64,000 nt of DNA, taken from the NCBI GenBank assembly GCA_000719105.1, contig JODX01000032.1, positions 3,405-67,404 on the forward strand, read 5' to 3'. Positions 8,801 to 56,344 of the stretch are shown in pieces (positions within the stretch are counted from its first letter, which is position 1; the number at the start of each line of letters is the position of its first letter). The DNA comes from Streptomyces sclerotialus (lineage in GTDB: Bacteria; Actinomycetota; Actinomycetes; Streptomycetales; Streptomycetaceae). A program made the translations under genes and the position numbers. The notes under the pieces were generated by a model. The model was given only the letters and a program-made list of their open reading frames with translations. It searched no databases and was not told where the DNA came from.

Positions 8801-11236
8801 CCCGGCCGCCCCCGGCGGCACCAACCGCAGGCCGCCGTCGAGCACATGGGCGCGCGTCCGGGGAAGCGGACAGCCGATCGGCACCGCCGTCTCCCAGTCT
8901 GCCGCGTCCGCCGGCAGCGGGAACGTCGTCACCACATGGGTCTCGGTCGGTCCGTAGTTGTTCCGCACCCGCAGCGACGGGTTCCGCCGGACGAACTCCC
9001 GCACCCGTTCAGAGGGCCGGAACGGTTCACCGGCCTGCACCAGATGTGTCAGATCCGGGAGGGCACGGCCCTGCCGCTGCGCCGCGTCGCACAGCGCCTC
9101 GATCACCGGATGCGGCGCGAACACCTCGTTCACCCGGAGCCCGTCCAGCCAGGCGGCCAGCTCGTCCGGACTGCGGCGCGTCTCCTCCCTGGGCAGCACC
9201 AGCGTCTTCCCGGACAGCAGGGCGGAGAGCAGTTCCTGCGCACACACGTCGAAACTCAGCGCGGCGAACAGCGCCGTCCTCGTGCCCGCCCCGCCACCGA
9301 GCGCCCGGCCGTTCCAGTCCACCAGGTTGACCAGCGCACCACCGGGCATCGTCACGCCCTTCGGCCGTCCCGTCGATCCGGAGGTGTAGATCACATACGC
9401 GGGATGCCCGGCGACGAGCGGCCGGACCCTGTCCGCATCGGACACCGCGGCGGCCGAAGCACCCTGCATTGCGGCATCCGCCTCCGCGCTGCCCCACACC
9501 AGCCGGGGCACGTCCGCATCCGGCAGCCGGGCCGCGCTCCCGGCGGCGGTGATCAGCAGGGCGGGCGCCGCGTCGGTGAGCATGAGCGTCAGCCGCTCGG
9601 CCGGATAGCCGGTGTCCAGGGGCAGGTAGGCACCGCCTGCCTTCAGCACCGCCATGACGGTGATCACCAGTTCCGGGGAGCGTGGCAGTGCCGACGCCAC
9701 CACGCTTTCCGGCCCGACGCCCCTGTCGATCAGCACCCGTGCCAGCCTGTTCGCGGCCGTGTCCAGTCGCCTGTAGGTCAGCGTGGTGTCCCCCGCCAGT
9801 ACCGCGACCGCGTCCGGGGTCCGTTCCGCCTGTGCCTGGAACAGTTCCGGCAGCGTGGCCCACGGCCCGGGCCGCACCGGCCCCGTCCCGGCCGCCAGCG
9901 CCCGCGCCCGCTCCCCGGCCGTCAGCAGGCCGATGCCGCCGATCGTCCGGTCCGGATCCGCGCACACCGCCTCCAGCACGGCGACCAGACGGCGCTGGTG
10001 GGCGGCCAGGTCGACCTGGTCGTAGAGATGCGGGTTGGCGTCCAGTTCGATCCGCAGGCCCTCGCCGTCGGACGGGTCGCAGCAGTCGATGGAGAGATCG
10101 TCGACCAGGCCGTTGGCGATGCTCCGGACCGCTGCCCGGTGCCCGGCGAACCGCAGGTCGTAGGCGAACCCCTTGATGTTGACCAGCGGACCCGTCAGGT
10201 CGTCCAGCCCGCCGGTCAGGCCCAGGTCGCGCCGCAGTTCCTCACCCCGGTACCGCTGGTGACGCATGATCTCCTTGGTCTTCCGCGTCACCTGCCGCGC
10301 CAGCTCCCGGCCCGTCGAACGACCGTCCAGCGACACGCGCAGCGGCAGTACGTTGGCGAGCATCGCGGGGATGCGCCGCAGTTCGGCGTCGGTGCGGGCC
10401 GTCGTCGGCAGGCCGAGCACGATGTCGCGTGCGCCCGTCATGCGGTGCAGGTAGGCGGCCACGACCGCGGTCATGAGCATCGACCAGTGCACGGTGATGT
10501 CGCGGGCTGTCGCGCGCAGCCGTGCCTCGGTAGCGGCCGGCAGGTGTTCGCCGTACCGCAGGTTCCCGGCCGGCCGCCGGCTCGGACGGGCGCTCAGGCG
10601 GGGCGGATCCGGCAGGTCGGCCAGCTGCTGCAGCCAGTACGCGCGGTCCTCGGCGTACGCGGGCGAGGAGCGGTACTCCGCGTCCCGCTCCAGCAGTACG
10701 GCCAGGGGAGGAAACGGAGCGGGGTCGGCGGAGGCGCCCTCGGCGCATGCGGTGTACAGCTCGGCCACACGACGGGTGAAGAGCGCCCCGCCCATGGCAT
10801 CCACCACGATGTGGTGCATCGCCTGGTACAGGAGGAAGTGTTCGGGACCCAGCTCGAACAGCGCGAAGGAGAAGAGGTCGTCGCGCCGGAGGTCCAGCGG
10901 CCGCGCGAGGTCGGCGCGCGCCCAGGACTCGGCCGTGGCCCGCGGGTCCGGTTCGCCGCTGACGTCGAACACGGGGAGGTCCCATCCCTCGCACGGCGCG
11001 ATGACCTGCCACAGTCCGTCCGCGTCCTCGTGGAACCGCGCGCGCAGGGCCTCGGCCTCCTTCAGTGCCTGCCGCAGGGCGTCCCCGAGCGCCGCGGCAT
11101 CGATACGCCCGGCGATGTCCAGGAACTCGGCGATGCGGTAGTACTGGCCGTCGGGGTCCAGTTGGTGCGCCAGCCACACCTCACGCTGGGCGGCCGACAG
11201 CGGCAGACGTTCGCGGCGTGCATCGGACGATGTCAT
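2807..11236 (-). CDS. Two-module non-ribosomal peptide synthetase (C-A-T-C-A-MT-T-TE)
   Basis: A 2,809-residue NRPS with GGGAGACCGA before its ATG. Domain order by motif: C1 (HHIVVDA near 140), A1 ([11 protein letters not shown] near 618, [10 protein letters not shown] near 963), T1 ([11 protein letters not shown], Ser near 1014), C2 (HHIAADG near 1202), A2 (same A3 motif near 1700), an inserted methyltransferase at about 1995-2245 (EIGVGSGLL), the A2 tail, T2 (Ser near 2492) and a type I thioesterase (GWSFGG near 2620). C1 has no upstream module and resembles the EntF-type C domain that accepts a carrier-bound acyl or aryl starter, so the product may be an acylated dipeptide with an N-methylated second residue. 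By eye the specificity codes are DVQFVANVVK (A1, proline-like) and DAWMTAVVCK (A2, unassigned). No transporter or starter-loading gene is adjacent. Confidence 0.95.
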
Positions 11237-11567
11237 TCGGTCTCCCTCGCTGGGAAGCGGACGCTGCCTGCCGATAGCCGAGCGGACGCATCTCGGCGCA
11301 TCTCGGCGCACGAGGAATGACCTGAGTGAAAGCCCGCGGCTGCTGAAGAGGTGATCGATGGACCGGAACTCGAAGCCGGCAGGAGAACCGCTGATTCCGC
11401 GAGCGGCTTTCCTTATCACCCTCATCGCATATTCGCCATTACCGAAATTGATGCTACGCCTGCACGCGCAGCACAATCCATTACACGATGGAGTGATATC
11501 GAAGGATCCGGACCTGCATTTTGCGTCGCAGCCGAGTAAGCCGCCCGGCAGCAGGTGCGCCCGCCCC
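11237..11567. promoter_or_regulatory. Non-coding region holding the NRPS promoter
   Basis: This is a 331-bp gap between the NRPS start and the stop of the CBM2 membrane protein, both on the minus strand. The part at about 11400-11520 is clearly more AT-rich than its surroundings, as expected for a promoter. I see no convincing hexamer pair, palindrome or protein-coding frame. Confidence 0.4.
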
Positions 11568-13094
11568 TCAGCTCACCGTCGCGCAGGCGTGCCCGTTCAG
11601 CGTGAACCGGTCCGGGACGCCGTTGCCGCCCTGCCGGGAGCCGATGAAACCGACGCCGAAGGTGCCGCCCGGGCTGACGGTCCTGTTGTAGTCGGCCGCG
11701 GAGGCCGTGACGCGGGAGCCGTCCTGCTGGAAGGAGCCGTCCCACATCTGGGAGACGCGCTGGCCGTCCTCGAACGCCCAGCCGATGCTCCAGTCGTCGA
11801 GGGCCTCGACGGAGGTGACGGTGACCGTGGCCTGGAAGCCGTCCGGCCATTCGTTGACGATCTCGTAGCGGAGGTGGCAGAAGGCGTCCGTGGAGCGCGT
11901 GGGCTCGATCGGCCGGTGCGAGACACGGGCGGGAGAGGGGCCCTCGCCCCGCGGTTCCGGCTCGGAGCCCCCGGTCGTCGGCGTGGACCCGGGCGTGGAC
12001 GCGGCGGTGGATGTGGATGTCACGGTCGCGCGCGGTGATCCCGACGGGTCGTCCGGGGTACCGGACGGCCGGGGAGCGACGGTGGGCAGCGACGGAGCCG
12101 TCTCCGCCACCGGTCCGCTGCTCTCCGTCTCCCCGGCGGCCGTGTCACCGCGCTCGCGGTCCTGGGGCATGAGGGTGACCGCGAGAGCCAGGACGGACAC
12201 GATGCCGGTCGCCGCCAGCAGGCCGGTGCGGCCGATCCGCGGCTTGGGTTCCCGGCCGGGCGACAGGCCCCGGTCGGTGCCCGAGGAGTCGGCGCGGCCG
12301 GCGCTCAGCCCGGCCTCGGCGGCCCGGCGCCGCCGCTCCAGATAGGCGAGGCCGCCCCAGCCGATCACGCCGCCGGCCAGCGCGGCGGGCAGCCCGCCGC
12401 CGTGCAGCCGCAGACAGGCGGCCGCCTCCGCGCAGCCGGCGCAGGTGGCGAGGTGACGGGAGAGGTCCTCGGGCGCGTCGGTGCCGGGTACGCGGGTGAC
12501 GGCGTCCAGCAGCCGTGCGTAGCTGCGGCAGCCGGCGTCCATGGGGGATGCGAGGTGGCCGCGGCGGCACCGGTCCCGGAACAGCGCCCGCGCCTGCTCG
12601 AGTCCGCCGGAGACCGACCCCGGGTCGAGGCCGAGCCGCCGGGCGACCGCGGGCAGGGGCAGCGCCTCCACCTCGGCCAGCCACAGCAGGTCCGCGTCCG
12701 CCTCCTGGAGCTCGCCCAGGGCACGCAGGGCGAGCGGGCGGCGCGGGGGCGGCCCGGTGTAGCGGGCCGCCTTGTCGGAGTTGAGCCAGAGCCGCAGGTC
12801 CGGGTCGAGGTGGTGGCCCTGCCCGGCGGCCTCCCAGGACGCGGCCGTGGTGCGCACCGCCGCCAGCAGGAACGGCACACGCGACGGCCGCGGCACCCGG
12901 CGGCCCCTGCCCCGGCCCGCCCCGGCCTCCTCGGCACGCATCTCCCGGACGCCGTGCGTGAACGCCTCGGTGGCCAGCCGGGTCGCCGAGGCCGACCCGG
13001 AGGTGCACAGATCGGCGTACGAGAGGACCGCGTCCCAGCACTCCGAGAGGAGCGTGGCCTCGTGCGCGTCCTGAGGCGTGGGCAGGTCGGGCAT
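11568..13094 (-). CDS. Membrane protein fusing sigma-like HTH and zinc finger to an extracellular CBM2
   Basis: A 508-residue protein starting at an ATG with GGAG six bases upstream. Residues 1-190 resemble an ECF sigma factor with a weak region 2 and a region-4-like HTH ([18 protein letters not shown]). A zf-HC2 anti-sigma-type motif follows ([10 protein letters not shown]). A single membrane helix lies near 315-335 ([17 protein letters not shown]), followed by a long Ser/Thr/Pro-rich linker. The last 100 residues are a family 2 cellulose-binding module ([13 protein letters not shown], then FGVGFI and FTLNGHAC). The layout predicts a cytoplasmic regulator tethered to a cell-surface polysaccharide sensor. 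Whether the sigma-like part binds RNA polymerase is unknown, since region 2 looks degenerate. Confidence 0.8.
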
Positions 13095-13215
13095 GGATCT
13101 CCTGCGTCCATGTAAGAACTGGAGACCCAATCGTCTCACTGGTAACGGAAGTTGTGCAGTCAACCGTTCCAGGGTGGACGGGTCGGGCACGGATCAGGGA
13201 CGGGCCAGGGGCGGG

Positions 13216-14562
13216 TCAGACCGCGACGTCCTCCTCGACGCCCCCCTCGGTGTCCCCTTCCACCGCCGGGAGGCTGTCCATGAAGGAGCTCACCGAGAAC
13301 ACCGCGTTGCCGGCTCCGGGCGGGCCGTATCCGGGCGGGGAGGAGAGCCCGAAGTCCTCCATCGTCTGCCGGTACGCCTGGAGCAGCCGGATGTGGTACT
13401 CCAGCGGCGCCCCCTGCGGATTGGCCTTGCCGAGCGGGGTGGTCGGCTCCGGGCACCAGGTGGTGAAGCGGGGCGTGATGCCGTGCGACATGAAGAAGCG
13501 CAGGCCCTCGGTGGTGGAGGCGATGGCCTCGTCGACCGTCTTGAAGCCGAAGGGCTCGGCCATCTCGACGCCCGCCACGAAGTTGGGGATGACGTTGCGC
13601 GCGCCGAAGACCTCCGTGGAGTCCAGTACCCGCTTGTGCCACTCGTCGCGGCCGACGTAGCGCTCCTTGCCGGGGCAGAAGATCTTGAACAGGTACTCGT
13701 CCCACACCTCGTAGTTGGGGTGGTAGATCTGCACGCCGTAGTCCTTGAACCGCTGCACGTCGTCGCGCGGCAGCGCCTGGGCGACCACCTTGCCGATCCA
13801 GCGGCCCGGGAAGCGCTCCTCGATGGCCTTGGCGTAGTGCCCGTAGAAGTCGGCCTCGTCGCGCCCGGAGACCGTCTTGGTGATCGCGCCGCCGGTGAGG
13901 GTGTAGGCGGTGGACGCCTTCGCGGTGTCGTAGCGGTCGATGATCTCGAGCGCCTCCAGCACCTCCTCGACGTCCTTCACCCCCGTGTAGGGGCGCCCGG
14001 CGGCCTTGTGCTGGCGCCAGTTGTGGTTGATGTCGCAGTACTGGCACTCCTCCTTGGCACCGAAGTACTGGCAGACCCGGAAGACGGTGAGGTAGATCAG
14101 GTAGCCCCACTGGATGGTCGGGGCGACCTCCATCACGGACTTCCCGTTGGAGAGCTTGTGCCGGTAGTACTCGGGCATGGGCGGCACGCCGACGTCCGAG
14201 ATCCGCTTGCCGTCCAGGTAGAGGCCGAGCATGCCGTGCTCGTCGGCGGCGACCCGGTACGGGGACGACGGGTTCACCCGCACGGACACCACGGTGCGCC
14301 GCAGGTCGTACGGGCCGCCGGTGAGGATGATCTCCTCGGGCGGGCGGTTCAGCGCGGCCTCGCCCAGCTCGGGCAGGGTGCCGTGGTCGAAGGAGAAGAT
14401 GAAGTACGACTTCGGCTTGACGTCACCGTCCTCGTTGCCGGTGAGGGCCGACTTGTCGAAGGCCACCCCGCCCCTGAGCAGGTCCTCCTTGAAGACGGCC
14501 TCCCGCGGCACGTGCGGGAACCGTTCCATCAGATCCTCGACCAGCGCCGTACGGCTGCCCAT
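13216..14562 (-). CDS. Radical SAM protein of unknown function
   Basis: A 448-residue protein with GAGGAG upstream of its ATG. The cluster-binding segment reads CQYFGAKEECQYC, with cysteines spaced CX8CX2C instead of the usual CX3CX2C. Downstream segments (TGGAITKT, then GVQIYHPNYEVWDEYLF and GVEMAEPFGF) suit a radical SAM TIM barrel. Glycine-rich loops and a conserved-looking C-terminus (SSPPGYGPPGAGNAVFSVSS) follow. I cannot name the reaction. No precursor peptide, methyl acceptor or cofactor pathway gene is next to it. It stands alone between the CBM2 protein and a phosphotransferase pseudogene, with its own promoter space upstream. Confidence 0.8.
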   Translation of the reverse strand: MGSRTALVEDLMERFPHVPREAVFKEDLLRGGVAFDKSALTGNEDGDVKPKSYFIFSFDHGTLPELGEAALNRPPEEIILTGGPYDLRRTVVSVRVNPSSPYRVAADEHGMLGLYLDGKRISDVGVPPMPEYYRHKLSNGKSVMEVAPTIQWGYLIYLTVFRVCQYFGAKEECQYCDINHNWRQHKAAGRPYTGVKDVEEVLEALEIIDRYDTAKASTAYTLTGGAITKTVSGRDEADFYGHYAKAIEERFPGRWIGKVVAQALPRDDVQRFKDYGVQIYHPNYEVWDEYLFKIFCPGKERYVGRDEWHKRVLDSTEVFGARNVIPNFVAGVEMAEPFGFKTVDEAIASTTEGLRFFMSHGITPRFTTWCPEPTTPLGKANPQGAPLEYHIRLLQAYRQTMEDFGLSSPPGYGPPGAGNAVFSVSSFMDSLPAVEGDTEGGVEEDVAV

Positions 14563-43944: not shown

Positions 43945-45096
43945 TCACTCCCCCGGCGGCGCCCCGCCCCCCGGCTTGTCGGACGCCTTGGCATGGGTGC
44001 GCAGGCGCGAGGTGACGTCCTCGGGCGGCAGGAAGCGGGACCAGCGTTCGGGGAACTCGGAGGGCATGTCCGGATCGTCGGGGTCGTGGGGCTCGGCGGC
44101 GCGGGCCGCGGCGGCGCGGGCGACGTACTCGGCGGCCAGCTCCTCCCGCAGACGCTCGTTGGCGGCGCGCGCGGCGGCCGTGGCGGCGGCCGGCCAGACC
44201 CGGTCGATGGCGGCGTTGACGGCGGCGCCGACCAGCACCGCGAACGCGGACACGCCGATCCAGAGCAGGACGGCGACGGCGGCGGCGAGGGAGCCGTAGA
44301 TCGTCGCGCCCTCGATCGTGTTGGTGAGGTAGATCCGCAGCAGGAAGCTGCCGAGCACCCACATGCCGAGGGCGACCAGGGCGCCCGGGGCGTCCTCGAC
44401 CCAGGGCGAGCGCACGGGCACGGAGACGTGGTACAGCGTCGTCAGGAACACGACCGACAGGACGATCACGACCGGCCAGTACAGGATCTGCACCAGGGTC
44501 GTCGACCACGGCAGGACGTTCACCACCGCGTCCGGGCCCGCGACCATCAGCGGCAGCGCCACCGACCCGATCAGCAGCGCCACGATGAACAGCAGGAAGG
44601 CCAGCAGCCGGGTCTTGACTATGCCGCGCACACCGTCGAGGCCGTACATCACGGTGATGGTGTCGATGAAGACGTTCACCGCTCGGGATCCGGACCAGAC
44701 CGCGAAGAGGAAACCGACGGAGATGACGTCGGGTCTGCCGCCCTGCGTCACATCGTCCAGAATCGGCTGGGCGATCTCCTGGACGCCGCGGTCGGACAGC
44801 ACCGTGCGGGAGGCCTCCAGAAGGTTGTTCTCCAGGCTGGAAATGGTGTCGGCGCCCGTCCAGGCGTCGACGTAGTAGAGCAGGCCGATCAGACTGACGA
44901 GCAGCGGCGGCACGGACATCAGCGTGAAGAACGCCGCCTCCGCCGCGAGGCCGAGAACGCGGTACTCGATGCACGAGTTCACGGTGTCCTTCAGCAGCAG
45001 CCAGGCTGTTCTGCGCTTGGAGACGTTCCGGTAGAGGGCACGGGCCCGGTGGAGACGGCCGGAGGGGCTCTCGGAGAACTTTCTTGCTGGCTGCAC
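43945..45096 (-). CDS. YihY/BrkB family inner-membrane protein
   Basis: A 383-residue integral membrane protein with the YihY layout of six hydrophobic segments: EAAFFTLMSVPPLLVSLIGL, FLFAVWSGSRAVNVFIDTI, LLAFLLFIVALLIGSVALPL, ILYWPVVIVLSVVFLTTLY, ALVALGMWVLGSFLLRIYL and AAVAVLLWIGVSAFAVLVGA. The last 90 residues are a charged, Ala-rich cytoplasmic tail. Some homologues were once called ribonuclease BN; that activity belongs elsewhere and the true role is unknown. It is monocistronic on the minus strand. Confidence 0.92.
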   Translation of the reverse strand: MQPARKFSESPSGRLHRARALYRNVSKRRTAWLLLKDTVNSCIEYRVLGLAAEAAFFTLMSVPPLLVSLIGLLYYVDAWTGADTISSLENNLLEASRTVLSDRGVQEIAQPILDDVTQGGRPDVISVGFLFAVWSGSRAVNVFIDTITVMYGLDGVRGIVKTRLLAFLLFIVALLIGSVALPLMVAGPDAVVNVLPWSTTLVQILYWPVVIVLSVVFLTTLYHVSVPVRSPWVEDAPGALVALGMWVLGSFLLRIYLTNTIEGATIYGSLAAAVAVLLWIGVSAFAVLVGAAVNAAIDRVWPAAATAAARAANERLREELAAEYVARAAAARAAEPHDPDDPDMPSEFPERWSRFLPPEDVTSRLRTHAKASDKPGGGAPPGE

Positions 45097-46180: not shown

Positions 46181-48727
46181 GTGGTGGGAAACAGCGGTGA
46201 GGCCACGACTGCCGCTCCGCCCGACCTTCCGGCCGCGCAGGTCGCATGCACGGACAACGGCGCGCAGGCCGCGCGCCCGGACTCCGGGCAGCTCACGCGC
46301 GCGGACACCGAGCGGATCCTCGCCGAGGTGCTGGCCGCGGTCGTGCGGGTCGATCAGGTGTCGGCCGACAGCCACTTCTTCGACGACCTCGGCGCCAATT
46401 CACTGGTGATGGCCCACTTCTGCGCCCGGATCCGAAAGCGGTCCGACCTGCCGTCGGTGTCGATGAAGGACGTCTACGCCCATCCGACGGTCCGCGGTCT
46501 GGCCGCCGTCCTGGCCGGGGCCGAGGAACCGGGCCCCGAGCGGGCGCCCGTGCAGGCCGAGCCGGTGCCGCCCGGAAGCTCGTTCCGCCACGCGCTCTGC
46601 GGAACGCTGCAGTTCCTGGTCTTCGTCGGATACAGCCTGCTCGGCGCGGTCGCCCTCACCCAGGGGTACGAGTGGGTGGCCGCCGCCCCGTCGGCCGCCG
46701 GCGTCTATCTGCGGGCGGCGCTGTTCGGCGGCCTGCTCGTCGTCGGGCTGACCCTGCTGCCGGTCGCCGCCAAGTGGCTGCTGATCGGCCGCGCCAGGCC
46801 GGCCGAGTTCCCGGTCTGGGGCATGACCTACTTACGGTTCTGGATCGTCCGGGCGCTGCTGCACACCAGCCCGGCGATGCTCCTCGTCGGCAACCCGCTG
46901 TACGCGGTCTACCTGCGCGCCCTCGGTGCCCGCATCGGCCGGAACACGACGATCCTGAGCCGCTCGGTGCCCGTCGCCGCGGATCTGCTCACGGTGGGCG
47001 AGGGCACGGTGATCCGCAAGGACTCGTCGCTGCAGTGCTACCACGCCCACGCCGGGCGCCTGCGCACCGGCCCCGTCACCCTCGGCCGCGACGTGTTCGT
47101 GGGCGAGCGGACCGTGCTGGACATCAACACCTCGATGGGCGACGGATCCCAGCTCGGCCACTCCTCCGCGCTGCGTCCCGGCGAGTCGGTGCCGGCCGGG
47201 GAGAGCTGGCACGGCTCCCCCGCCGAGCGCACGACGGTCGACCACATACGCGTCGCCCCGGCGCCGTGCGGCACGCTCCGCCGGGCCGGCTACGCCGCCG
47301 GCTCCCTGCTCCAGGTCTTCCTGCTGTGGGTGCCGCTGGCCGTCGGCGGCCTGTACCTGCTGTTCGCGGTGGCCCCCGGTCTCGAGGCGCTCGTCGACGC
47401 GCAGGCCCGGGACATCGGCTCGCTGCGCTTCTACGTCGAGGCGCTGGTGCTGTCCGTGGTGCTGTTCCTGGGCGGCACCGCGATCGGCGCGGTCACGGTG
47501 CTCCTCGTGCCGCGCCTGCTGAACCGGATGATCAAGCCGGACAGGGTGTATCCGCTGTACGGCTTCCAGTACGGGGTGCACCGCACGATCACCCGTCTGA
47601 CCAACATCCTGTTCTACAAGTGGCTGTTCGGTGACAGCTCGTACATCGTCTACTACCTGAAGGCCCTCGGGTACAACCTGTCCCGCGTGCAGCAGACCGG
47701 CTCCAACTTCGGGACCGAGCTGAAGCACGAGACGCCGTTCCTGTCCACGGTCGGCCGGGGCACGATGGTCGCCGACGGCCTGTCGATCATGAACGCCGAG
47801 TACTCGGCCACCTCGTTCAAGGTCAGCCGGACGTCGATCGGGGCGCGCAACTTCCTCGGCAACGCCATCGCCTACCCGGCCGGGGGCCGTACGGGCGACA
47901 ACTGCCTGCTGGCCACGAAGGTGCTGGTGCCCCTGGACGGCGAGGTCCGCGAAGGGGTGGGGCTGCTCGGCTCGCCCCCGTTCGAGATCCCGCGGTCGGT
48001 GGAGCGCGACAGCCGCTTCGACCATCTGCGCCAAGGAGCGGAGTTCCAGCGGCGGCTGCATGCGAAGAATCGTTACAACCTGAAGTCGATGGGGATGCTG
48101 TTCGCCCTGAGGTGGGTGTGCGGCTTCGTGCTCACGGTGCTCGGCTTCGCGGCCGTCGACCTGTACTGGCACGGCACCGCGGCACTCGCCGTGGTCACCG
48201 CGTTCATGGTGCTGAGCCTCGTGTTCATCGTCGTGTACTTCGCGCTCGTGGAGCGCTGCATCCTGCGCTTCCGCCCGCTGCAGCCGGAGCTCTTCTCCAT
48301 CTACGACGAGCGCTTCTGGCACATCGAGCGCCTGTGGAAGGTGCCCGACCTGCACCTCGGCGTGCTGAACGGCACCCCGTTCAAGGTCTGGGCCTGGCGG
48401 CTGATGGGGGCGAAGTTCGGGAAGCGGGTCTTCGACGACGGCCTCTACCTGACCGAACGGACGCTGTCCACGGTCGGCGACGACTGCACCTTCAACATGG
48501 GCAGCAGGCTCCAGGCGCACTCGCAGGAGGACGGCACCTTCAAGTCGGACCACGTCAGGCTCGGCGACGGCGTGACCCTCGGGGTCGGCTCGCTGGTCCA
48601 CTACGGCGTGACCATGGGCGACGGGGCCGAACTCGCCGCCGACTCCTTTCTGCTGAAGGGCGAGCAAGTACCGCCGCGCGCGCGGTGGGGCGGCAACCCG
48701 GCCACGGAGGACCGGGGACGACGGTGA
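46181..48727 (+). CDS. Pls/PosA-type membrane poly-amino-acid synthetase subunit (carrier + six TM + three C-like domains)
   Basis: A GTG at 46181, five bases after AGGAG, gives 848 residues. Residues 38-108 are a carrier domain with the pantetheine serine in FFDDLGANSLVMAHFCARIR. Six hydrophobic segments follow in pairs (near 140-165, 170-200, 370-400, 415-450, 640-665, 667-695). Between and after them lie three hexapeptide/beta-helix-like domains (RNTTILSRSVPVAADLLTVG, TMVADGLSIMNAEYSATSFK, DDCTFNMGSRLQAHSQEDGT). This is the C-terminal half of the epsilon-poly-lysine synthetase (Pls) architecture, in which tandem C-like domains elongate an isopeptide chain at the membrane. The adenylation domain is on the next gene, overlapping by four bases. 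Confidence 0.88.
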   Translation: MVGNSGEATTAAPPDLPAAQVACTDNGAQAARPDSGQLTRADTERILAEVLAAVVRVDQVSADSHFFDDLGANSLVMAHFCARIRKRSDLPSVSMKDVYAHPTVRGLAAVLAGAEEPGPERAPVQAEPVPPGSSFRHALCGTLQFLVFVGYSLLGAVALTQGYEWVAAAPSAAGVYLRAALFGGLLVVGLTLLPVAAKWLLIGRARPAEFPVWGMTYLRFWIVRALLHTSPAMLLVGNPLYAVYLRALGARIGRNTTILSRSVPVAADLLTVGEGTVIRKDSSLQCYHAHAGRLRTGPVTLGRDVFVGERTVLDINTSMGDGSQLGHSSALRPGESVPAGESWHGSPAERTTVDHIRVAPAPCGTLRRAGYAAGSLLQVFLLWVPLAVGGLYLLFAVAPGLEALVDAQARDIGSLRFYVEALVLSVVLFLGGTAIGAVTVLLVPRLLNRMIKPDRVYPLYGFQYGVHRTITRLTNILFYKWLFGDSSYIVYYLKALGYNLSRVQQTGSNFGTELKHETPFLSTVGRGTMVADGLSIMNAEYSATSFKVSRTSIGARNFLGNAIAYPAGGRTGDNCLLATKVLVPLDGEVREGVGLLGSPPFEIPRSVERDSRFDHLRQGAEFQRRLHAKNRYNLKSMGMLFALRWVCGFVLTVLGFAAVDLYWHGTAALAVVTAFMVLSLVFIVVYFALVERCILRFRPLQPELFSIYDERFWHIERLWKVPDLHLGVLNGTPFKVWAWRLMGAKFGKRVFDDGLYLTERTLSTVGDDCTFNMGSRLQAHSQEDGTFKSDHVRLGDGVTLGVGSLVHYGVTMGDGAELAADSFLLKGEQVPPRARWGGNPATEDRGRR

Positions 48728-51297
48728 GCGGGGGAACCGAACCGATGGACCTGATGGACATGAAGCGGAAGCGGGCCGAGGACGCCCGCGAGTTCTGGCG
48801 CGGGGTGCTCACCGCGGGCGGACCGACGGTCGTCCCCCGCTGGACACCGGCTCCCGCGGCCGGGACGGGCGAGGTCGAGGTGGCGCTGCCCGACGGGTTC
48901 CTGGCGGCGGTGCGGGCCCTCGCACTGCCCCTGGACTCCGTCCTGCTGGCCGCCCACGCACGCGTGCTCGCCGTACTGACCGGCGAGCGGGAGGTCACCA
49001 CCGGCTGGGTGGCCGTGGCGGACGGCCGTCCGCTGCCCTGCCGGCTGACCACCGGGACGGGCTCGTGGCGCGAGCTGCTGCGGCACGCACGGCAGGTCAC
49101 CGCCGACGTCCGGGCGTACGCGGACTACCCGGTCGACGAGCTGCGGCAGGAACTGGGACTCGCGTCGGCACCGTTCGAGACCGTGCTGGACGCCACCGGC
49201 AGCGACGGCGCCCTGGAAGGGGACGCCGTGCTCCGCGTGGGCCTGAAGCGGCAGGGCGACCGGATCGGGCTGCGGGTCCGCCACCGCACCGACGTGCTCG
49301 GCGGAGAGGCCGCGGCCCGGATCGCCGGCTACCACGTCACCGCGCTGACCTCGCTGGCCCTGGACCCGGAGGCCGACTACGGGCGGCAGGGGCTGCTCTC
49401 CGCCGACGAGACGCGCCGGCAGCTCGACGGGCTGGCGGGGCCGCGCCGGGAGCTGCCGGACCGGCGGGTCCACGAGCTGTTCGAGGACCGGGTGCGGGCC
49501 CACCCGGACGCGGTGGCCGCGGTGTGCGGCGCCGACCGGTGGACGTACCGGGAGCTCAACTCCCGCGCCAACCGGATCGCCCGGGCCCTGCTCGTCCGCG
49601 GCCTGGAACCCGAGGGCGTCGTCGCGGTGGTGACCGAGCGGAACCTGGACTGGGCCGCGGCCGTCCTCGGGGTGCTGAAGGCCGGGGGCGTCTATCTGCC
49701 CGTCGAGCCGCACTTCCCCGCCGGGCGCATCGCCAAGACGCTGTCCCGGGCCGAGTGCGCGCTGGTGCTGACGGAGGACGGCAGCACGGCCACGCTCGAC
49801 GCGGCGCTGTCCCGGCTGTCCGGCGTGGAGAGCCTCCTCGTCGACACCGCCTACGAGGAGGGGCACGCCGACGACGACCCCCAGGTGCCCGTCTCCGGCG
49901 ACCGGCTCGCGTACATCTACTTCACCTCCGGCTCCACCGGTGAGCCGAAGGGCGCGATGTGCGAGCACGCCGGGATGCTCAACCACGTCCTCGCCAAGAT
50001 CGAGGACCTGGGCATCGAGGAGGGGCAGGTGGTCGCCCAGACCGCGCCCCAGTGCTTCGACATCTCGCTGTGGCAGCTGGTGTCCGCGTTCCTGGTGGGT
50101 GGGCGGACGCTGCTGGTGGAGCAGGAGGTGATCCTGGACGTCGACCGGTTCGTCGACCGGATCACGGCGGGCCGGGCCAATGTGCTCCAGGTCGTGCCGT
50201 CGTACCTGGAGGCCGTCCTCGCCCATCTCGAGCAGAACCCGCGCGCGCTGCCCGACCTGCGGATCGTGTCGGTCACCGGCGAGGCGCTGAAGAAGGAGCT
50301 CACCGAGCGCTGGTTCGCCTCGCACCCGACCGTCCCGCTGGTCAACGCCTACGGCCTGACCGAGACCTCGGACGACACCAACCACGAGGTGCTGCGCCGG
50401 CCGCCGGAGGGCGACCGGGTGCCGCTCGGCCGGGCCGTGCGCAACGTGCGGGTGTACGTCGTGGACGAGCACCTCGGCCTGGTGCCGCTGGGCGCCCCGG
50501 GCGAGATCGTCTTCTCCGGGGTCTGTGTCGGCCGGGGGTACGTCAACGATCCCGAGCGGACCCGGCGGGCCTTCACCGCCGACCCGTACCGGCCGGGCGA
50601 GCGGCTGTACCGCAGCGGCGACCAGGGGCGCTGGCGGCCCGACGGCAAGCTGGAGTTCCTGGGCCGCAAGGACACCCAGGTGAAGGTGCGCGGCTTCCGC
50701 ATCGAGATCGGCGAGATCGAGAACGCGCTGCTGAAGGTGGCGGGCGTCCGCGACGGCGCCGTGGTCGTGGCCCGGGGCGAGCACCTGGTCGCCTTCTACA
50801 GCGGGCGCAAGCAGCTCGACGCCGAGGTACTGCGCCGGACGCTGGCCGCCTCGCTGCCCGCGTACATGGTGCCGACGGTCGTCCACTGGCGCGAGCACCT
50901 GCCGCTGACCGCCAACGGCAAGGTCGACCGCAAGCAGCTCACCGCTCTCGCCGAGGAGCTGGGCACCGCCGGGGACGGCCTCCCCGCTCCCGCGCCGGGG
51001 ACGCCGACCGAGGAACGGCTGGCGGCCGCGTGGGCCCAGGTGCTCGGTCTCCCGCCGGCCCGCGTCGGCCGGCAGGACCACTTCTTCGACCGCGGCGGCA
51101 CCTCGCTCTCGGCCGTGAAGCTGGCGATCGCCCTGGACCGGACGGTGTCCCCCAAGGACATCACCCGGCACCCGGTCCTCGCCGAGCTGGCCGCACTGAT
51201 CGACGCCCGGACCGGGGCGGAGGCACCGGCCGCCGCTCCCGGCGCGCCCACCGGCTCCGGCACCACCGGCGTACGGACCGGGACCACCACGCCATGA
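48724..51297 (+). CDS. Adenylation-carrier protein with vestigial condensation domain, partner of the Pls-like protein
   Basis: The GTG at 48724 overlaps the upstream stop (GTGA), giving 857 residues; ATG 48745 is an alternative. Residues 10-215 resemble half of a condensation domain without the HHXXXDG site. The A domain has YFTSGSTGEPKGAM near 399, NAYGLTETSDDTNHEV near 545, YRSGDQGRWRPDG and NGKVDRKQL. A carrier domain follows (HFFDRGGTSLSAVKL, Ser near 794). The specificity code read by eye is DIWQSTADDK; two Asp at positions 8-9 would suit an amino side chain such as 2,3-diaminopropionate. It most likely activates Dap for the membrane synthetase. Confidence 0.9.
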   Translation: MSGGTEPMDLMDMKRKRAEDAREFWRGVLTAGGPTVVPRWTPAPAAGTGEVEVALPDGFLAAVRALALPLDSVLLAAHARVLAVLTGEREVTTGWVAVADGRPLPCRLTTGTGSWRELLRHARQVTADVRAYADYPVDELRQELGLASAPFETVLDATGSDGALEGDAVLRVGLKRQGDRIGLRVRHRTDVLGGEAAARIAGYHVTALTSLALDPEADYGRQGLLSADETRRQLDGLAGPRRELPDRRVHELFEDRVRAHPDAVAAVCGADRWTYRELNSRANRIARALLVRGLEPEGVVAVVTERNLDWAAAVLGVLKAGGVYLPVEPHFPAGRIAKTLSRAECALVLTEDGSTATLDAALSRLSGVESLLVDTAYEEGHADDDPQVPVSGDRLAYIYFTSGSTGEPKGAMCEHAGMLNHVLAKIEDLGIEEGQVVAQTAPQCFDISLWQLVSAFLVGGRTLLVEQEVILDVDRFVDRITAGRANVLQVVPSYLEAVLAHLEQNPRALPDLRIVSVTGEALKKELTERWFASHPTVPLVNAYGLTETSDDTNHEVLRRPPEGDRVPLGRAVRNVRVYVVDEHLGLVPLGAPGEIVFSGVCVGRGYVNDPERTRRAFTADPYRPGERLYRSGDQGRWRPDGKLEFLGRKDTQVKVRGFRIEIGEIENALLKVAGVRDGAVVVARGEHLVAFYSGRKQLDAEVLRRTLAASLPAYMVPTVVHWREHLPLTANGKVDRKQLTALAEELGTAGDGLPAPAPGTPTEERLAAAWAQVLGLPPARVGRQDHFFDRGGTSLSAVKLAIALDRTVSPKDITRHPVLAELAALIDARTGAEAPAAAPGAPTGSGTTGVRTGTTTP

Positions 51298-51350
51298 ACC
51301 TCTTCCGCACAGCCCGTGCCACGCGTACTACCGAAAGGACCGTAACGACC

Positions 51351-52349
51351 ATGTCGTCCTCGACTTCCCTGCTCCGCGACGACGTCGCCCTGGACGAGGG
51401 CAGGCCACCGCTGCTCCGCGTCCCGGGCGACGCCCGGGAGTGGCTCACCCCGCACCGGGACGCGCTGCGCGCGGTCGTCGCCGAGCACGGCGCGGTGCTC
51501 GTCCGCGGGCTCGGGGTGAGCGACCGGACGCAGGCGGGCGCCGTCTTCCGGCAGCTCGCCGACGAGCTGATGCCGGAGAAGGAGGCGTTCGCGCCGCGGC
51601 AGGCGTACGGCGACGGCGTCCACTCCTCCACGGCCTGGCCGCCCAACCAGCAGATGTGCATGCACCACGAGCTGAGCTACGCGATGGAGTTCCCCGGCCT
51701 GATGCTCTTCGCCTGCCTCACGGCGCCCGCCGAGGGCGGGGCGACGACCGTGGCCGACGCGGAGGCCGTGCTGGCGGCGCTGCCCAAGGAGCTGACCGAG
51801 CGGTTCGAGCGGGAGGGCTGGCTGCTCACCCGCAGCTACAACGACGAGATCGGCGCCACCCTCGAGGAGGCCTTCGGCACGGACGACCGGAGCGCCATCG
51901 AGGCGTACTGCCGGGTGCACGCCATCGAGTTCGACTGGCAGGACGACGGCTCCCTGCGCACCCGGCAGCGCCGCAGCGCCGTGGTGCGGCACCCGGTGAC
52001 GGGCCGCCGCTGCTGGTTCAACCAGATCGCGTTCCTCAACGAGTGGACGATGGACCCCGAGGTGCGCGAATACCTGGTGGACGTCTACGAGGAGGACGGC
52101 CTGCCGTTCAACACCCGCTACGGCAACGGCGACCCGATCGGCCCCGACGTCGTCGAGGCGATCAACGACGTGTACACCGCCCACACCCTGCGCGAGCCGT
52201 GGCAGGCGGGCGATCTGCTGCTCGTCGACAACGTCCGTACGGCGCACAGCCGGGAGCCCTTCGAGGGACCGCGCGAGGTGCTCGTGGGCCTCGCCGACCC
52301 GGTCAGGTTCGCCGACGTCTCCACGCCCCTGGAAGGAAACGCCCGATGA
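51351..52349 (+). CDS. TauD/clavaminate-synthase-like Fe(II)/2-oxoglutarate dioxygenase
   Basis: I chose ATG 51351 (GAAAGGA upstream, 332 residues); ATG 51294 overlaps the preceding stop as ATGA and would add 19 residues. The metal triad is HXE in MHHELSYAM near residue 104 and the distal His in DNVRTAHSREPFEG near 296. The pattern is that of SyrP/clavaminate-synthase-like enzymes, which hydroxylate free or carrier-bound amino acids. The gene is wedged between the A-T protein and SbnB. SbnB releases 2-oxoglutarate, the dioxygenase's co-substrate. A role in hydroxylating diaminopropionate, free, carrier-bound or polymeric, is inferred. Confidence 0.9.
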   Translation: MSSSTSLLRDDVALDEGRPPLLRVPGDAREWLTPHRDALRAVVAEHGAVLVRGLGVSDRTQAGAVFRQLADELMPEKEAFAPRQAYGDGVHSSTAWPPNQQMCMHHELSYAMEFPGLMLFACLTAPAEGGATTVADAEAVLAALPKELTERFEREGWLLTRSYNDEIGATLEEAFGTDDRSAIEAYCRVHAIEFDWQDDGSLRTRQRRSAVVRHPVTGRRCWFNQIAFLNEWTMDPEVREYLVDVYEEDGLPFNTRYGNGDPIGPDVVEAINDVYTAHTLREPWQAGDLLLVDNVRTAHSREPFEGPREVLVGLADPVRFADVSTPLEGNAR

Positions 52350-53410
52350 CCGCGTACGAACCGGCGGCGACGCCCGCGAGGAAGGCGCCGTCCTTCTCCG
52401 TGATCACCGGCGCCCAGGTGCGGCAGGTCCTCACCGGCCACGAGCGCGAGGTCGTCGACCTGGTGGAGTCCGTCTACCGCCTGCACGGCGCGGGCGACAC
52501 GGTCAATCCGCCGTCGTACTTCCTGCGCTTCCCCGACCGTCCCTCCTCCCGCATCATCGCGCTGCCCGCGTCGCTGGGCGGCGAGAAGCGGGTCGACGGG
52601 CTGAAGTGGGTCTCCAGTTTCCCGGAGAACATCGAGTCCGGTCTGCCGCGCGCCTCGGCCGTGCTCATCCTCAACGACCCGGTCACGGGCTACCCGTTCG
52701 CCTGTCTCGAGGCGTCGGTGATCAGCGCGGCCCGGACGGCGGCGTCGGCGGCGCTGGCGGCCCACCGGCTGAGCGACGCCCGCAAGGGGCGCGCGAAGCC
52801 GTCCCGGGTGCTGTTCGTGGGCACGGGCCTGATCGCCCGATACCTCCACACGTACCTGGCCGCCACCGGCTGGCCGTTCGAGGAGATCGGCGTGCACGAC
52901 CTGTCGGCCGAGAGCGCCGCCGGGTTCACGTCCTACCTGGAACGGTCGGGCACCGACGCCCGGATCACCGTGCACGGCACGGCGGAGGAGGCGATCCGCG
53001 CGGCCGACCTGGTGGTCTTCGCCACGGTCGCGGGCACCCCGCACATCCACGAGCCGAAGTGGTTCGCCCACGACCCGCTGGTGCTGCACGTGTCGCTGCG
53101 CGACCTGGCTCCGGAGATCCTGCTCGGCTCGGCGAACTTCGTCGACGACGTGGAGCACTGCCTGAAGGCGGACACCTCGCCGCACCTGGCCGAGCAGCTC
53201 ACCGGGGGCCGGGACTTCCTGACCGGGACGCTGGACGACGTGCTCGCCGGCCGGGTGGGCGTGCCGTCGGACCGGCCGGTGATCTTCTCACCGTTCGGCC
53301 TCGGCGTCCTGGACCTGGCGGTGGGCGCGTACGTCCACGAGGCCGTGTCCCGGGCCGATCGGCTCCATGTCGTGGACGGCTTCTTCCATGAACTGAGCCG
53401 CCACGGCTGA
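52346..53410 (+). CDS. sbnB: 2,3-diaminopropionate biosynthesis protein SbnB
   Basis: A 354-residue member of the ornithine cyclodeaminase family. The NAD-binding site is VLFVGTGLIARYLHTYL and the family core segments SSRIIALPASLGGEKRVDGL, HVSLRDLAPEILLGSANFVD and FSPFGLGVLDLAVG are present. In staphyloferrin B biosynthesis SbnB oxidatively hydrolyses N-(1-amino-1-carboxy-2-ethyl)glutamate to L-2,3-diaminopropionate, 2-oxoglutarate and NADH. Its ATG overlaps the dioxygenase stop (ATGA), so translation is coupled. The partner sbnA follows. Confidence 0.92.
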   Translation: MTAYEPAATPARKAPSFSVITGAQVRQVLTGHEREVVDLVESVYRLHGAGDTVNPPSYFLRFPDRPSSRIIALPASLGGEKRVDGLKWVSSFPENIESGLPRASAVLILNDPVTGYPFACLEASVISAARTAASAALAAHRLSDARKGRAKPSRVLFVGTGLIARYLHTYLAATGWPFEEIGVHDLSAESAAGFTSYLERSGTDARITVHGTAEEAIRAADLVVFATVAGTPHIHEPKWFAHDPLVLHVSLRDLAPEILLGSANFVDDVEHCLKADTSPHLAEQLTGGRDFLTGTLDDVLAGRVGVPSDRPVIFSPFGLGVLDLAVGAYVHEAVSRADRLHVVDGFFHELSRHG

Positions 53411-53582
53411 CCGCCGCGGCACCGCGGCTCCGCACACGCGCACATACGGGCCCGACCATCCCTTGTGCGTCTCGCGCACCGGAAATATGCGCGAAAAACA
53501 GAAAACAGCACGACAACAAGTCCGTTACCGATACAACACGCCACTTATGACAGCACGGCAAGCGCGAAACAGGGGGGCCGTA

Positions 53583-54569
53583 GTGCCAGTCATATCCGTA
53601 CCCACGGACTTCAACGAGGAGGAGCTGTACGTCGATCTTCAACCGGTCGTCGGGCACTCCCTCTTCCTCAAGTGCGAGGGCTTCAACTTCGCCGGCTCCA
53701 TCAAGGTCAAGGCGGCGCTGGAGATGGTGAAGGCCGCAGAACGGGACGGAGTCCTCACGCCGGGCTCGGTCCTCGTCGAGTCCTCGTCCGGGAACCTGGG
53801 CGTGGCACTCAGCATGATCGCGGCGAGCAGGGGTTACCGGTTCCTGTGTGTGACCGACTCCCGCTGCAACCCGCAGACACGCCGGCTGATGGAGGCGCTG
53901 GGCAGCGACGTCCACGTCATCACCGAGCCGGCCACCGACGGCGGCTTCCTCGGCGCGCGCATCTCGTACGTCCGCGCGCTGTGCGCCTCCGACGACCGCT
54001 ACGTCTGGCTCGACCAGTACACCAACTCGGGCAACTGGCGGGCGCACTACCGCACCACCGCCCCCGCCATCGCCCGGCAGTTCCCGCGCCTGGACGTGCT
54101 GTTCGTGGGCGTGGGCACCTCCGGAACGCTGATGGGATGCGCACGCTGGTTCTGGGAGCACCGGCGCGGCGTGCGCATCGTGGCCGTGGACAGCGAGGGC
54201 TCCGTCTCCTTCGGCGGGGCTCCGGGCCGCCGGATGATCCCGGGGCTGGGCATGAGCGTCAGCCCGCCGCTGCTCGACGAGTCCTGGGTGGACGACCTGG
54301 TGCGCGTCGAGGAGGCGGACACCGTGCGGGCCTGCCGCCGGCTGGCCCGGCGCGGGTTCCTGTTCGGCGGCTCCACGGGCACGGTGGTCAGCGGCGCCTC
54401 CGACTGGCTGGCCCGGAACGGCGGCGACGACCTGACGGCCGTGGCCATCGCCCCGGACCTCGGCGAGCGCTACCTGGACACCGTGTACCGCGACGGCTGG
54501 GTGAGCGACCTGTACGGCGACGACGCCCTGAACACCGAGGAGCTGCCGCTGATCTCCCGCTCGGCCTGA
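53583..54569 (+). CDS. sbnA: 2,3-diaminopropionate biosynthesis protein SbnA
   Basis: A PLP-dependent enzyme of the cysteine-synthase family. In the known pathway it joins O-phospho-L-serine and L-glutamate to N-(1-amino-1-carboxy-2-ethyl)glutamate. The PLP lysine lies in FAGSIKVKAALEM, the substrate loop in VESSSGNLGVALSMIA and the phosphate-binding loop in VGVGTSGTLMG. GTG 53583, with GGGGGG nearby, gives 328 residues; ATG 53547 is an alternative. A 172-bp AT-richer gap separates it from sbnB, so it may have its own promoter as well. It completes the Dap supply. Confidence 0.9.
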   Translation: MPVISVPTDFNEEELYVDLQPVVGHSLFLKCEGFNFAGSIKVKAALEMVKAAERDGVLTPGSVLVESSSGNLGVALSMIAASRGYRFLCVTDSRCNPQTRRLMEALGSDVHVITEPATDGGFLGARISYVRALCASDDRYVWLDQYTNSGNWRAHYRTTAPAIARQFPRLDVLFVGVGTSGTLMGCARWFWEHRRGVRIVAVDSEGSVSFGGAPGRRMIPGLGMSVSPPLLDESWVDDLVRVEEADTVRACRRLARRGFLFGGSTGTVVSGASDWLARNGGDDLTAVAIAPDLGERYLDTVYRDGWVSDLYGDDALNTEELPLISRSA

Positions 54570-54709: not shown

Positions 54710-56344
54710 ATGGCAGCGAGCACCCATGAAGTGAGCAACCAGCCCCCGCCCTTGCAGGGCCATGACGTCTTCACCGCCGACCGGGCCCTCGCGGAGGCGG
54801 TCGAGCGGCACCTCGACCCCCGCCTGCTCGACGAGGTCCGCGCGGAACTGTCGGCGTTCGGACGTACGGCGGGCTCCGTCCAGGTGCAGGAGTGGGGGCG
54901 GCTGGCCAACGAGAACCCGCCGGTGTTGCGGACGCACGACCGCTACGGCAACCGGATCGACGAGGTCGAGTTCCACCCCTCCTGGCACCGGCTCCTCGGC
55001 AAGGGTGTCTCCCAGGGACTCACGGCGGCCTGGGCCCGGCCCGGCGGCCATGTGCGGCGCGCGGCCGCCTTCCTCGTCTGGTCGCAGGTCGAGGCGGGCA
55101 ACGGCTGCCCGCTGTCGATGACCCACGCGGCGGTGCCCGCGCTCCGCGCCGATCCCGCGCTGGCGGCCGAGTGGGAGCCGCGGCTGACGTCCATGGTCTA
55201 CGACCAGGACATGCGGCCTGCCGCCCGGAAGGCCGGTGTCCTGTTCGGCATGGGCATGACGGAGAAGCAGGGCGGCAGCGACGTCCGCGCGAACACCACC
55301 GCGGCACGGCCCCTCGCGGAGGACGGCACGTACGAGCTGAGGGGCCACAAGTGGTTCTGCTCGGCGCCGATGTCGGACGGTTTCCTGGTGCTGGCGCAGG
55401 CGCCAGGAGGCCTCACCTGCTTCCTCGTACCGCGGGTGCTGGCGGACGGCACGCGCAACGTGTTCCGCATCCAGCGGCTGAAGGACAAGCTGGGCAACCG
55501 GTCCAACGCCTCCGCCGAGGTCGAGTTCGACGGGACGTGGGCGCGCCGGGTCGGCGACGAGGGCCGCGGGGTGCGCACGATCATCGACATGGTGGCGGCC
55601 ACGCGCGTGGACTGCGTGCTGGGCTCGGCCGGGCTGATGCGGCAGGCGGTGTCCCAGGCGGTCCACCACTGCACGTACCGAGAGGCGTTCGGCGGGAAGC
55701 TGATCGACAAGCCGCTGATGCGCAATGTCCTCGCGGACCTGGCGCTGGAGTCGGAGGCGGCGACCGCGCTCGGCCTGCGGCTGGCGGCGGCGTACGACGA
55801 CGGCGGCGAGAGCGAGCGCGCGTTCCTTCGGCTGGCGGTGCCCGCCGCCAAGTACTGGGTGACCAAGCGCTGTACGCCGGTCGTGACCGAGGCCCTGGAG
55901 TGCCTGGGCGGCAACGGGTACGTGGAGGAGTCGGGGATGCCCCGGCTGCTGCGCGAGTCGCCGCTCAACTCGATCTGGGAAGGCGCAGGCAACGTCCAGG
56001 CGCTGGACGTGCTGCGGGCGCTGCAGCGCGAGCCGCAGGCGCTGAACGCGTTCCTCCAGGAGGTCGGGCAGACCCGGGGCGCCGACCACCGGCTGGACGG
56101 CGCGATCAAGAACGTGCTGACCGAACTGGCCGATCTGGAGGGCATGGAGGCCCGCGCGCGCCGGCTCGTGGAACGGCTCGCGCTGGTGCTCCAGGGCTCG
56201 CTGCTGGTCCGGTACGCGCCCCCGGAGGTCGCCGACGCGTTCTGCGCCTCCCGGCTGGGCGGCGACTGGGGCACGGCCCTCGGCACCCTGCCGCACACCC
56301 TGGACCTCGCCTCGGTGGTGACCCGGGCGCGCCCGGTCGGCTGA
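54710..56344 (+). CDS. AidB-like acyl-CoA dehydrogenase family protein
   Basis: A 544-residue flavoprotein close to E. coli AidB in length and layout. Visible motifs are GMGMTEKQGGSDVRANTT (flavin-binding), GHKWFCSAPMSDGFLVLAQA, LGGNGYVEESGMPRLLRE and SPLNSIWEGAGNVQALDVL. AidB is induced by alkylating agents and binds DNA, with uncertain dehydrogenase activity. TAGGTT (54698-54703) ends six bases before the ATG, and no ribosome-binding site is present, so leaderless. It is preceded by the Dap cluster but has its own promoter, and a strong terminator follows. The Ada-like gene at 1 kb is not linked. Confidence 0.92.
   Translation: MAASTHEVSNQPPPLQGHDVFTADRALAEAVERHLDPRLLDEVRAELSAFGRTAGSVQVQEWGRLANENPPVLRTHDRYGNRIDEVEFHPSWHRLLGKGVSQGLTAAWARPGGHVRRAAAFLVWSQVEAGNGCPLSMTHAAVPALRADPALAAEWEPRLTSMVYDQDMRPAARKAGVLFGMGMTEKQGGSDVRANTTAARPLAEDGTYELRGHKWFCSAPMSDGFLVLAQAPGGLTCFLVPRVLADGTRNVFRIQRLKDKLGNRSNASAEVEFDGTWARRVGDEGRGVRTIIDMVAATRVDCVLGSAGLMRQAVSQAVHHCTYREAFGGKLIDKPLMRNVLADLALESEAATALGLRLAAAYDDGGESERAFLRLAVPAAKYWVTKRCTPVVTEALECLGGNGYVEESGMPRLLRESPLNSIWEGAGNVQALDVLRALQREPQALNAFLQEVGQTRGADHRLDGAIKNVLTELADLEGMEARARRLVERLALVLQGSLLVRYAPPEVADAFCASRLGGDWGTALGTLPHTLDLASVVTRARPVG

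Follow-up and report, generated by a model that had tools for sequence, protein, structure and literature searches.

Synthetases of the epsilon-poly-lysine synthetase (Pls)/PosA family have been described as single chains, in which the protein's own adenylation (A) domain fixes the monomer. Is there a natural two-part version, which would be a departure from this scheme? The question is raised by a cluster at positions 46181–54569 (+ strand) of a window, that is, the whole analysed stretch of 64,000 nucleotides of Streptomyces sclerotialus DNA (contig JODX01000032.1, assembly GCA_000719105.1). By NCBIfam and Pfam, its five genes encode, in this order, a carrier plus Pls/PosA membrane domain (T-TDD, gene 1), an A-carrier protein (gene 2), a TauD-type dioxygenase (gene 3), SbnB (gene 4) and SbnA (gene 5), in agreement with the domains assigned in an earlier note made from the letters of the window. 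The system appears to be a variant of the Pls/PosA type, whose membrane half draws on a separate portable cassette of genes for the A-carrier protein, the dioxygenase and the supply of L-2,3-diaminopropionate (Dap). The best explanation, to which we assign a probability of about 45%, is a two-protein, membrane-anchored synthetase for an oligomer of oxidised Dap.

Gene 1 matches the TIGR02353 profile (NRPS_term_dom) over 703 residues with the score 757.9 bits, the cut-off being 423.1. NCBIfam and Pfam yield one PP-binding carrier and no A domain on this protein, and Ser74 of the carrier is invariant in 40 aligned sequences. In the AlphaFold (AF2) model, based on a 40-sequence alignment (mean pLDDT 73.1, pTM 0.74), the long helices 134–167, 172–202, 365–397, 415–448, 619–662 and 668–694 form three pairs, and three beta-helix-like regions are situated between and after them. 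This bears out the six transmembrane segments and three beta-helix-like regions that had been read from the 848-residue sequence. The carrier is unreliable in the model, since residues 1–128 mostly have pLDDT below 60. Among the best 50 Foldseek matches, mainly hexapeptide-repeat acyltransferases with low query coverage, there is no whole-domain match (TM by query length at most 0.15). In the assembly of the window (92 contigs, 7.02 Mb, completeness 85%) no one-chain Pls was seen, gene 1 being the only TIGR02353 match of the two candidates scored.

Thus gene 1 resembles the epsilon-poly-lysine synthetase/PosA family in scoring above the TIGR02353 cut-off and in its six long helices, predicted to form three transmembrane pairs, with three soluble regions (mean pLDDT 73). 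It differs in having no A domain of its own; the partner A domain belongs to a different clade and is without the Glu at position 3 that PMC10522769 reports for the family. Under the strict definition, one chain with a Glu pocket, the five-gene system is not a Pls/PosA synthetase; its membrane half does belong to the family and may work likewise.

Gene 2 contains the Pfam domains AMP-binding, AMP-binding_C and PP-binding. With the ten Stachelhaus positions set by GrsA numbering, its pocket reads DIWVSTADDK, and the pattern DIW[VLICA]ST[AT]DDK is seen in 74 of the 75 aligned gene 2-type A domains, the window included (six of the 80 related loci described below lack gene 2 or retain too little of it). 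The exception, L106 (loci and genomes are denoted by L and G numbers), has an unrelated A domain and neither SbnA nor SbnB; the pocket and the Dap pathway genes co-vary. In a control set of 20 fetched Streptomyces Pls regions, 16 yielded A domains long enough for the length filter, and in all 16 these positions read DAETIGTVVK, which agrees with PMC10522769, where Pls is stated to have Ala at position 2 and Glu at position 3. The same paper gives Asp at position 1 and Glu at position 3 for Pls/PosA family members, where gene 2 has Asp and Trp, and Phe at position 2 with Glu at position 3 for the poly-Dap (PDAP) pockets, where gene 2 has Ile, as in 74 of the 75 aligned domains, and Trp. The string DIWVSTADDK and its variants occurred in no paper found in the open PubMed Central (PMC) text. 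The signature DVWQMIGDDK, reported for beta-OH Dab in PMC12283262, shares Trp at position 3 and the two Asp at positions 8–9 with the gene 2 pocket, a likeness that is only suggestive.

The A-domain tree (70 rows, the T-TDD loci being sampled about every fifth) leads to the same distinction. The 29 gene-2-type non-ribosomal peptide synthetase (NRPS) A domains form one clade (100/100), within which the T-TDD-linked ones make up a 17-row subgroup (100/96), and the 16 Pls A domains form a separate group on a long branch (100/100). The tree and the pocket, with Trp in place of Glu, exclude the A domain of gene 2 as the missing half of a simply split Pls. Hence the split Pls proposed in the earlier note survives only in part: the membrane domain without its own A domain, the separate A domain, the Dap pathway and the dioxygenase are present as judged by gene content and homology, but simple splitting finds no support, and gene 2 is an NRPS-type A-carrier module rather than the lost half of Pls.

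About 225 residues ahead of the gene 2 A domain, overlooked in the earlier note, look like the C-terminal portion of a condensation domain. The match of the window copy is weak, at 12.3 bits (E 0.069, the cut-off being 30.6), and the score reaches 28.7 bits (E 7e-7) in L095, 27.7 in L043, 15.5 in L168 and 14.0 in L123, all below the cut-off; in seven gene 2 relatives this remnant is unaligned.

Genes 4 and 5 both exceed the NCBIfam equivalog cut-offs, with 412.3 bits against 326.9 for SbnB (TIGR03944) and 383.2 against 349.95 for SbnA (TIGR03945), and so the complete SbnA/SbnB pathway to Dap is predicted. Poly-Dap from Streptomyces albulus, named in the earlier note, is indeed described: according to PMC4668381, the single-chain synthetase of strain PD-1 is accompanied by two enzymes for Dap, one homologous to cysteine synthase and the other to ornithine cyclodeaminase. 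The Dap supply is the same in our cluster, as is the combination of a carrier with a membrane domain having three tandem soluble regions; however, in PD-1 the A domain, the carrier and the membrane domain are in one chain (PMC4668381), whereas here the A domain is on a separate gene. The word "dioxygenase" is absent from the PD-1 paper (PMC4668381).

The five-gene cluster is real, conserved and common in Streptomyces. Of 392 genomes from the same genus, that of the window among them, 142 contain a close relative of gene 1 (E ≤ 1e-180, two candidates scored per genome), contrary to the rarity assumed for this combination in the earlier note. At E ≤ 1e-120, relatives are present in 13 of 296 class-wide genomes, nine of them, own included, being same-genus. 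Relatives of the dioxygenase at E ≤ 1e-60, a looser cut that includes other dioxygenases, are present in 225 of the 392. A scan of named genomes yielded 231 dioxygenase relatives, of which the best 80 were kept; these loci are mostly from Streptomyces, and also from Amycolatopsis, Kutzneria, Pseudonocardia, Actinomadura, Actinoplanes, Actinacidiphila and Microtetraspora. The comparison of gene neighbourhoods, suggested earlier as a check, gives the five genes in the same order at 68 of the 71 loci with full flanks, a figure biased towards close relatives because the 80 loci are the best matches. The exceptions are L059, where SbnA was not found on a short contig, L075, where it lies at the opposite end of the locus, and L106. 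Gene 1 is upstream of the dioxygenase in all 74 loci with room for it. Since the order is kept in 68 of 71 related loci, a chance arrangement is excluded. The gene 1 copies of G183, G068, G059 and G263 contain one in-frame stop each, due to decay or sequencing error.

Against the best-match bias, we sampled more distant dioxygenases (46–76% identity), taking 20 of 36 listed places in 26 genomes. T-TDD was found at three of these 20 loci (L118, L121, L131). At six (L119, L120, L123, L124, L125, L127) the A-carrier protein with the same pocket, the dioxygenase, SbnB and SbnA occur together, and T-TDD was not found within about 20 kb; none of the respective genomes (G006, G080, G069, G088, G227, G287) is among the 142 with close gene 1. 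Several of these cassettes lie near ketosynthase, FabA-like, FabG-looking and DsbA-like genes (by Pfam for single examples in L123 and L127, by eye for the rest), and the ketosynthase/FabA-like surroundings presumably are those of cinnamoyl/polyene-lipid peptide clusters. The main texts of two papers on cinnamoyl peptides (PMC6510318, PMC9321520) do not contain "diamino", "Dap" or "dioxygenase". The L127 locus has phosphoglycerate dehydrogenase, which could supply phosphoserine to SbnA.

The remaining distant loci are more diverse. In L122 the A-carrier protein and the dioxygenase are accompanied by an end piece of SbnB only, and L128, with SbnB and SbnA, is cut by a contig end. No SbnB was found at L126, L129, L130 and L132, where the nearest SbnA-like enzyme is 33–34% identical. 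Together with the A-carrier protein and the dioxygenase, Pfam identifies a GHMP kinase, an ATP-grasp enzyme and a relative of argininosuccinate lyase in L129 and a PALP enzyme in L130. We take these neighbours to resemble DabABC, the route by which 2,3-diaminobutyrate is made for friulimicin, and L129 and L130 are likely 2,3-diaminobutyrate clusters. Four loci, L134–L137, belong to NRPS systems whose A domains are of other kinds. The gene-2-type A domains of the distant loci have DIW at positions 1–3 and DD at positions 8–9 in all 14 cases passing the length filter. As the A-carrier protein and the dioxygenase stay paired across apparently two supplies of 2,3-diamino acids, the membrane protein is an exchangeable partner.

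For four T-TDD genes, the stretch fetched contains no A domain of the gene 2 kind: L158 (8684–11305, genome G218), L161 (G472:C85) and L162 (G472), and L163 (9136–12366, G442). Their genomes each also hold a locus with T-TDD, gene 2, the dioxygenase and SbnB (L159, L160, L164). At the edge of L162, close to the end of a contig, lies a stretch matching SbnA at 66%, and this locus may be a piece of a cluster. We regard the orphan T-TDD genes as signs of recruitment in trans.

The origin of the membrane domain was addressed by a TDD tree of 33 rows. Here the split T-TDDs group with one-chain Pls/PosA (A-T-TDD) proteins of other actinobacteria; the forks uniting the split and one-chain forms have support 85/79 and 91/91, that is, the placement of the split form next to the one-chain proteins has moderate support. 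These one-chain relatives were found via L167 (G412, 7113–11189), whose A domain is 59% identical to that of Streptomyces Pls and 32% identical to gene 2, and whose TDD is 55% identical to gene 1. Among the 120 listed homologues, the code starts with DAET[IV]GT in all 107 readable cases, positions 8–9 being unaligned in this set. Such L167-type proteins form a large group with labels such as Streptosporangiaceae, Actinoplanes, Geodermatophilus and Pseudonocardia; they combine DAET-type pockets with a membrane domain nearer to the gene 1 domain than to the one in Streptomyces Pls.

Gene 3 encodes a TauD protein (PF02668, 158 bits). H105, E107, H299 and R308 are invariant across 52 aligned sequences; we take the former three to be the HxE...H facial triad and R308 to be the 2-oxoglutarate-binding Arg, and this conservation fits a working Fe(II)/2-oxoglutarate site. 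A halogenase is ruled out by the presence of the facial acid. The model has pLDDT 90.3, and the closest match by both sequence and fold is At3g21360 (1y0z). The nearest named matches are from Streptomyces, S. poonensis (91%) and S. ruber (85%); "AmbD" is among the database labels of two near relatives, which is a label, not evidence. Hydroxylation of Dap at the beta-carbon, which bears nitrogen, would yield an unstable N,O-acetal, stable only if acylated, and thus a hydroxylated poly-Dap is not the obvious outcome; by chemical reasoning, desaturation or alpha-oxidation of Dap is as likely as beta-hydroxylation. The linkage of gene 3 to gene 2 suggests that it acts on an aminoacyl carrier. On-carrier tailoring, with an A-carrier protein adjoining an Fe/2-oxoglutarate enzyme, is known for SyrP, SyrB1/SyrB2/SyrC and AmbC/AmbD. 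Unlike in these systems, the presumed acceptor here is a membrane condensing protein, and the on-carrier activity is putative. As for a SyrC-type thioesterase-like transferase, there is no thioesterase tail on gene 2 of the window, and the search did not extend to separate thioesterases elsewhere in the genome.

We propose the following scheme. SbnA and SbnB, as their family membership suggests, would produce Dap. The A domain of gene 2 would activate it and load the carrier of the same protein, consistent with the co-variation of the pocket and the pathway genes, and the dioxygenase would oxidise the diamino acid while it is bound to the carrier, in the manner of SyrP or SyrB1/SyrB2. The gene 1 carrier would then receive the unit in trans, either through direct loading by the A domain or through acyl transfer, and the membrane domain would, like its Pls/PosA relatives, form amide bonds repeatedly and release the chain. 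Historically, a Pls/PosA-type carrier-membrane protein without an A domain may have joined a mobile cassette able to make, load and oxidise a 2,3-diamino acid. The gene content argues for the Dap supply and the action in trans; the oxidation product, the transfer and the polymer we infer. A wider proposal, which we consider doubtful, is that about a third of the sampled same-genus genomes encode an undescribed class of polyamides, oligomers of oxidised vicinal diamino acids, whose synthetase is loaded in trans and whose monomers are switched by swapping the A-carrier/dioxygenase cassette; the units could be, for example, 2,3-dehydro-Dap or C2/C3-oxygenated, N,O-acetal-type Dap.

Several observations weigh against a synthetase of oxidised Dap oligomers. 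The A domain of gene 2 lacks the Glu with which the A domains of Pls/PosA bind the side-chain amine, and the acids at positions 8 and 9 can only be offered as a putative replacement. At L133 neither SbnA nor SbnB was found, despite a gene-2-type pocket and the dioxygenase. The L106 locus (Amycolatopsis taiwanensis, 6467–13316) comprises three carriers before the membrane domain, the dioxygenase, the unrelated A domain and a free carrier; with no SbnA/SbnB at the locus, it is a possible membrane synthetase for another monomer, and since it keeps the dioxygenase, the latter need not be tied to Dap. In the TDD tree, the outside rows are two distant Streptomyces Pls only, on long branches. Streptomyces Pls rows were lost from the TDD trees (four of six and eight of ten), their match to gene 1 being below the length filter, and with only two of the six requested rows present the root and the direction of change are not proven. 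Finally, in 46 of 76 gene 2 relatives the carrier motif is followed by a tail of at least 290 residues, the length of a thioesterase, which points to hydrolytic release of a short product; 43 of the 46 contain GHSSG or GHSAG, and in the one relative scanned, L043, the tail is a Pfam Thioesterase (65.5 bits).

Genes 1 and 2 might then make a dipeptide or another small Dap-derived molecule, the membrane domain forming one bond or serving in export. The presence of two carriers, the condensation remnant on gene 2 and the occurrence of the cassette next to conventional NRPS or lipid genes are in line with this model. However, the tail is missing from the window copy and from 30 of the 76 relatives, and the membrane domain clusters with one-chain Pls/PosA proteins; we consider a short product unlikely. 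Another model is plain poly-Dap with the A domain in trans, the dioxygenase acting on the finished chain or on some other target. Two like Dap enzymes and a Pls-type synthetase are what is described for PDAP in PMC4668381, but the gene 2 pocket is unlike the reported PDAP synthetase pocket, and the dioxygenase stays with the A-carrier protein where the membrane protein is missing, so that this model is improbable. Finally, the A domain could activate some other amino acid, with Dap as a free acceptor in the membrane step. A pocket without the Glu of Pls/PosA would agree with that, and a condensing enzyme could accept a free diamino acid; however, SbnA and SbnB remain with gene 2 in the six loci missing gene 1, hence Dap seems to serve gene 2, and such an arrangement is likewise improbable.

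In the open PMC literature we found neither the five-gene set nor a Pls-type protein lacking its A domain described; subscription journals and MIBiG were not covered, and the product of the cluster may be described there. The streptothricin beta-lysine system (Maruyama 2012, mentioned in PMC10522769) reportedly uses a stand-alone A domain in building a diamino acid oligomer, and in this respect our system, judged by its gene content, is similar; the streptothricin system is said to have neither a Pls-type membrane domain nor a Dap pathway. A link to the S. coelicolor "dipeptide" cluster SCO6429–38, which is named in the literature, is no more than a lead. Should the oxidised Dap oligomer synthetase be confirmed, separate monomer loading with probable oxidation would provide a modular route to new cationic polymers, and in the two-part system the mechanism of the membrane condensing domain could be studied apart from the A domain. 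In any case the cluster points to a metabolite family, undescribed in the open literature searched, across a large share of Streptomyces genomes.

Coordinates of the genes and domains of the cluster in the window
Feature	Positions	Strand	Basis
Gene 1, T-TDD: carrier (T) + Pls/PosA membrane domain, no A domain, 848 aa	46181..48727	+	TIGR02353, PP-binding, AF2 model
Gene 1 carrier domain, aa 47–110	46319..46510	+	Pfam PP-binding; Ser74 conservation
Gene 1 NRPS_term_dom, membrane condensing domain, aa 139–841	46595..48703	+	TIGR02353
Gene 2, condensation remnant–A–carrier, 857 aa, no thioesterase tail	48724..51297	+	NCBIfam, Pfam
Gene 2 weak condensation-domain remnant (C-terminal part; N-terminal half absent)	48724..49398	+	profile match below cut-off
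Gene 2 adenylation domain, pocket code DIWVSTADDK	49480..50922	+	Pfam, pocket read-out
Gene 2 carrier domain	51013..51201	+	Pfam PP-binding
Gene 3, putative Fe(II)/2-oxoglutarate dioxygenase, 332 aa, alternative start 51294	51351..52349	+	PF02668, conserved residues, sequence + fold match
Gene 4, SbnB-type dehydrogenase (predicted Dap synthesis)	52346..53410	+	TIGR03944
Gene 5, SbnA-type PLP (pyridoxal phosphate) synthase (predicted Dap synthesis), open reading frame from 53463	53583..54569	+	TIGR03945; start from relatives

The three 4-base overlaps between genes listed in the earlier note, GTGA, ATGA and ATGA, are seen at 48724, 51294 and 52346, respectively. Gene 3 has two candidate starts, one at 51294, overlapping gene 2, and an ATG at 51351 behind an AAAGGA stretch. 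The latter is more likely, in which case the middle overlap is lost and two overlapping junctions remain. Comparison with relatives suggests that gene 5 probably starts at GTG 53583 and not at TTG 53463.

The downstream gene at 54710–56344 encodes an acyl-CoA dehydrogenase/AidB relative, and its family is seen again in 21 of the 80 related loci; the family of the upstream gene at 43945–45096 (− strand) is seen again in 22 of the 80, both counts coming from a rough gene call. Neither gene is counted as part of the cluster. A large NRPS of 2889 aa with two A-domain stretches is encoded on the − strand at 2807–14562, beside a radical SAM protein (NF045502, 170.7 bits). This region is probably a separate biosynthetic cluster, about 32 kb away from the five genes.

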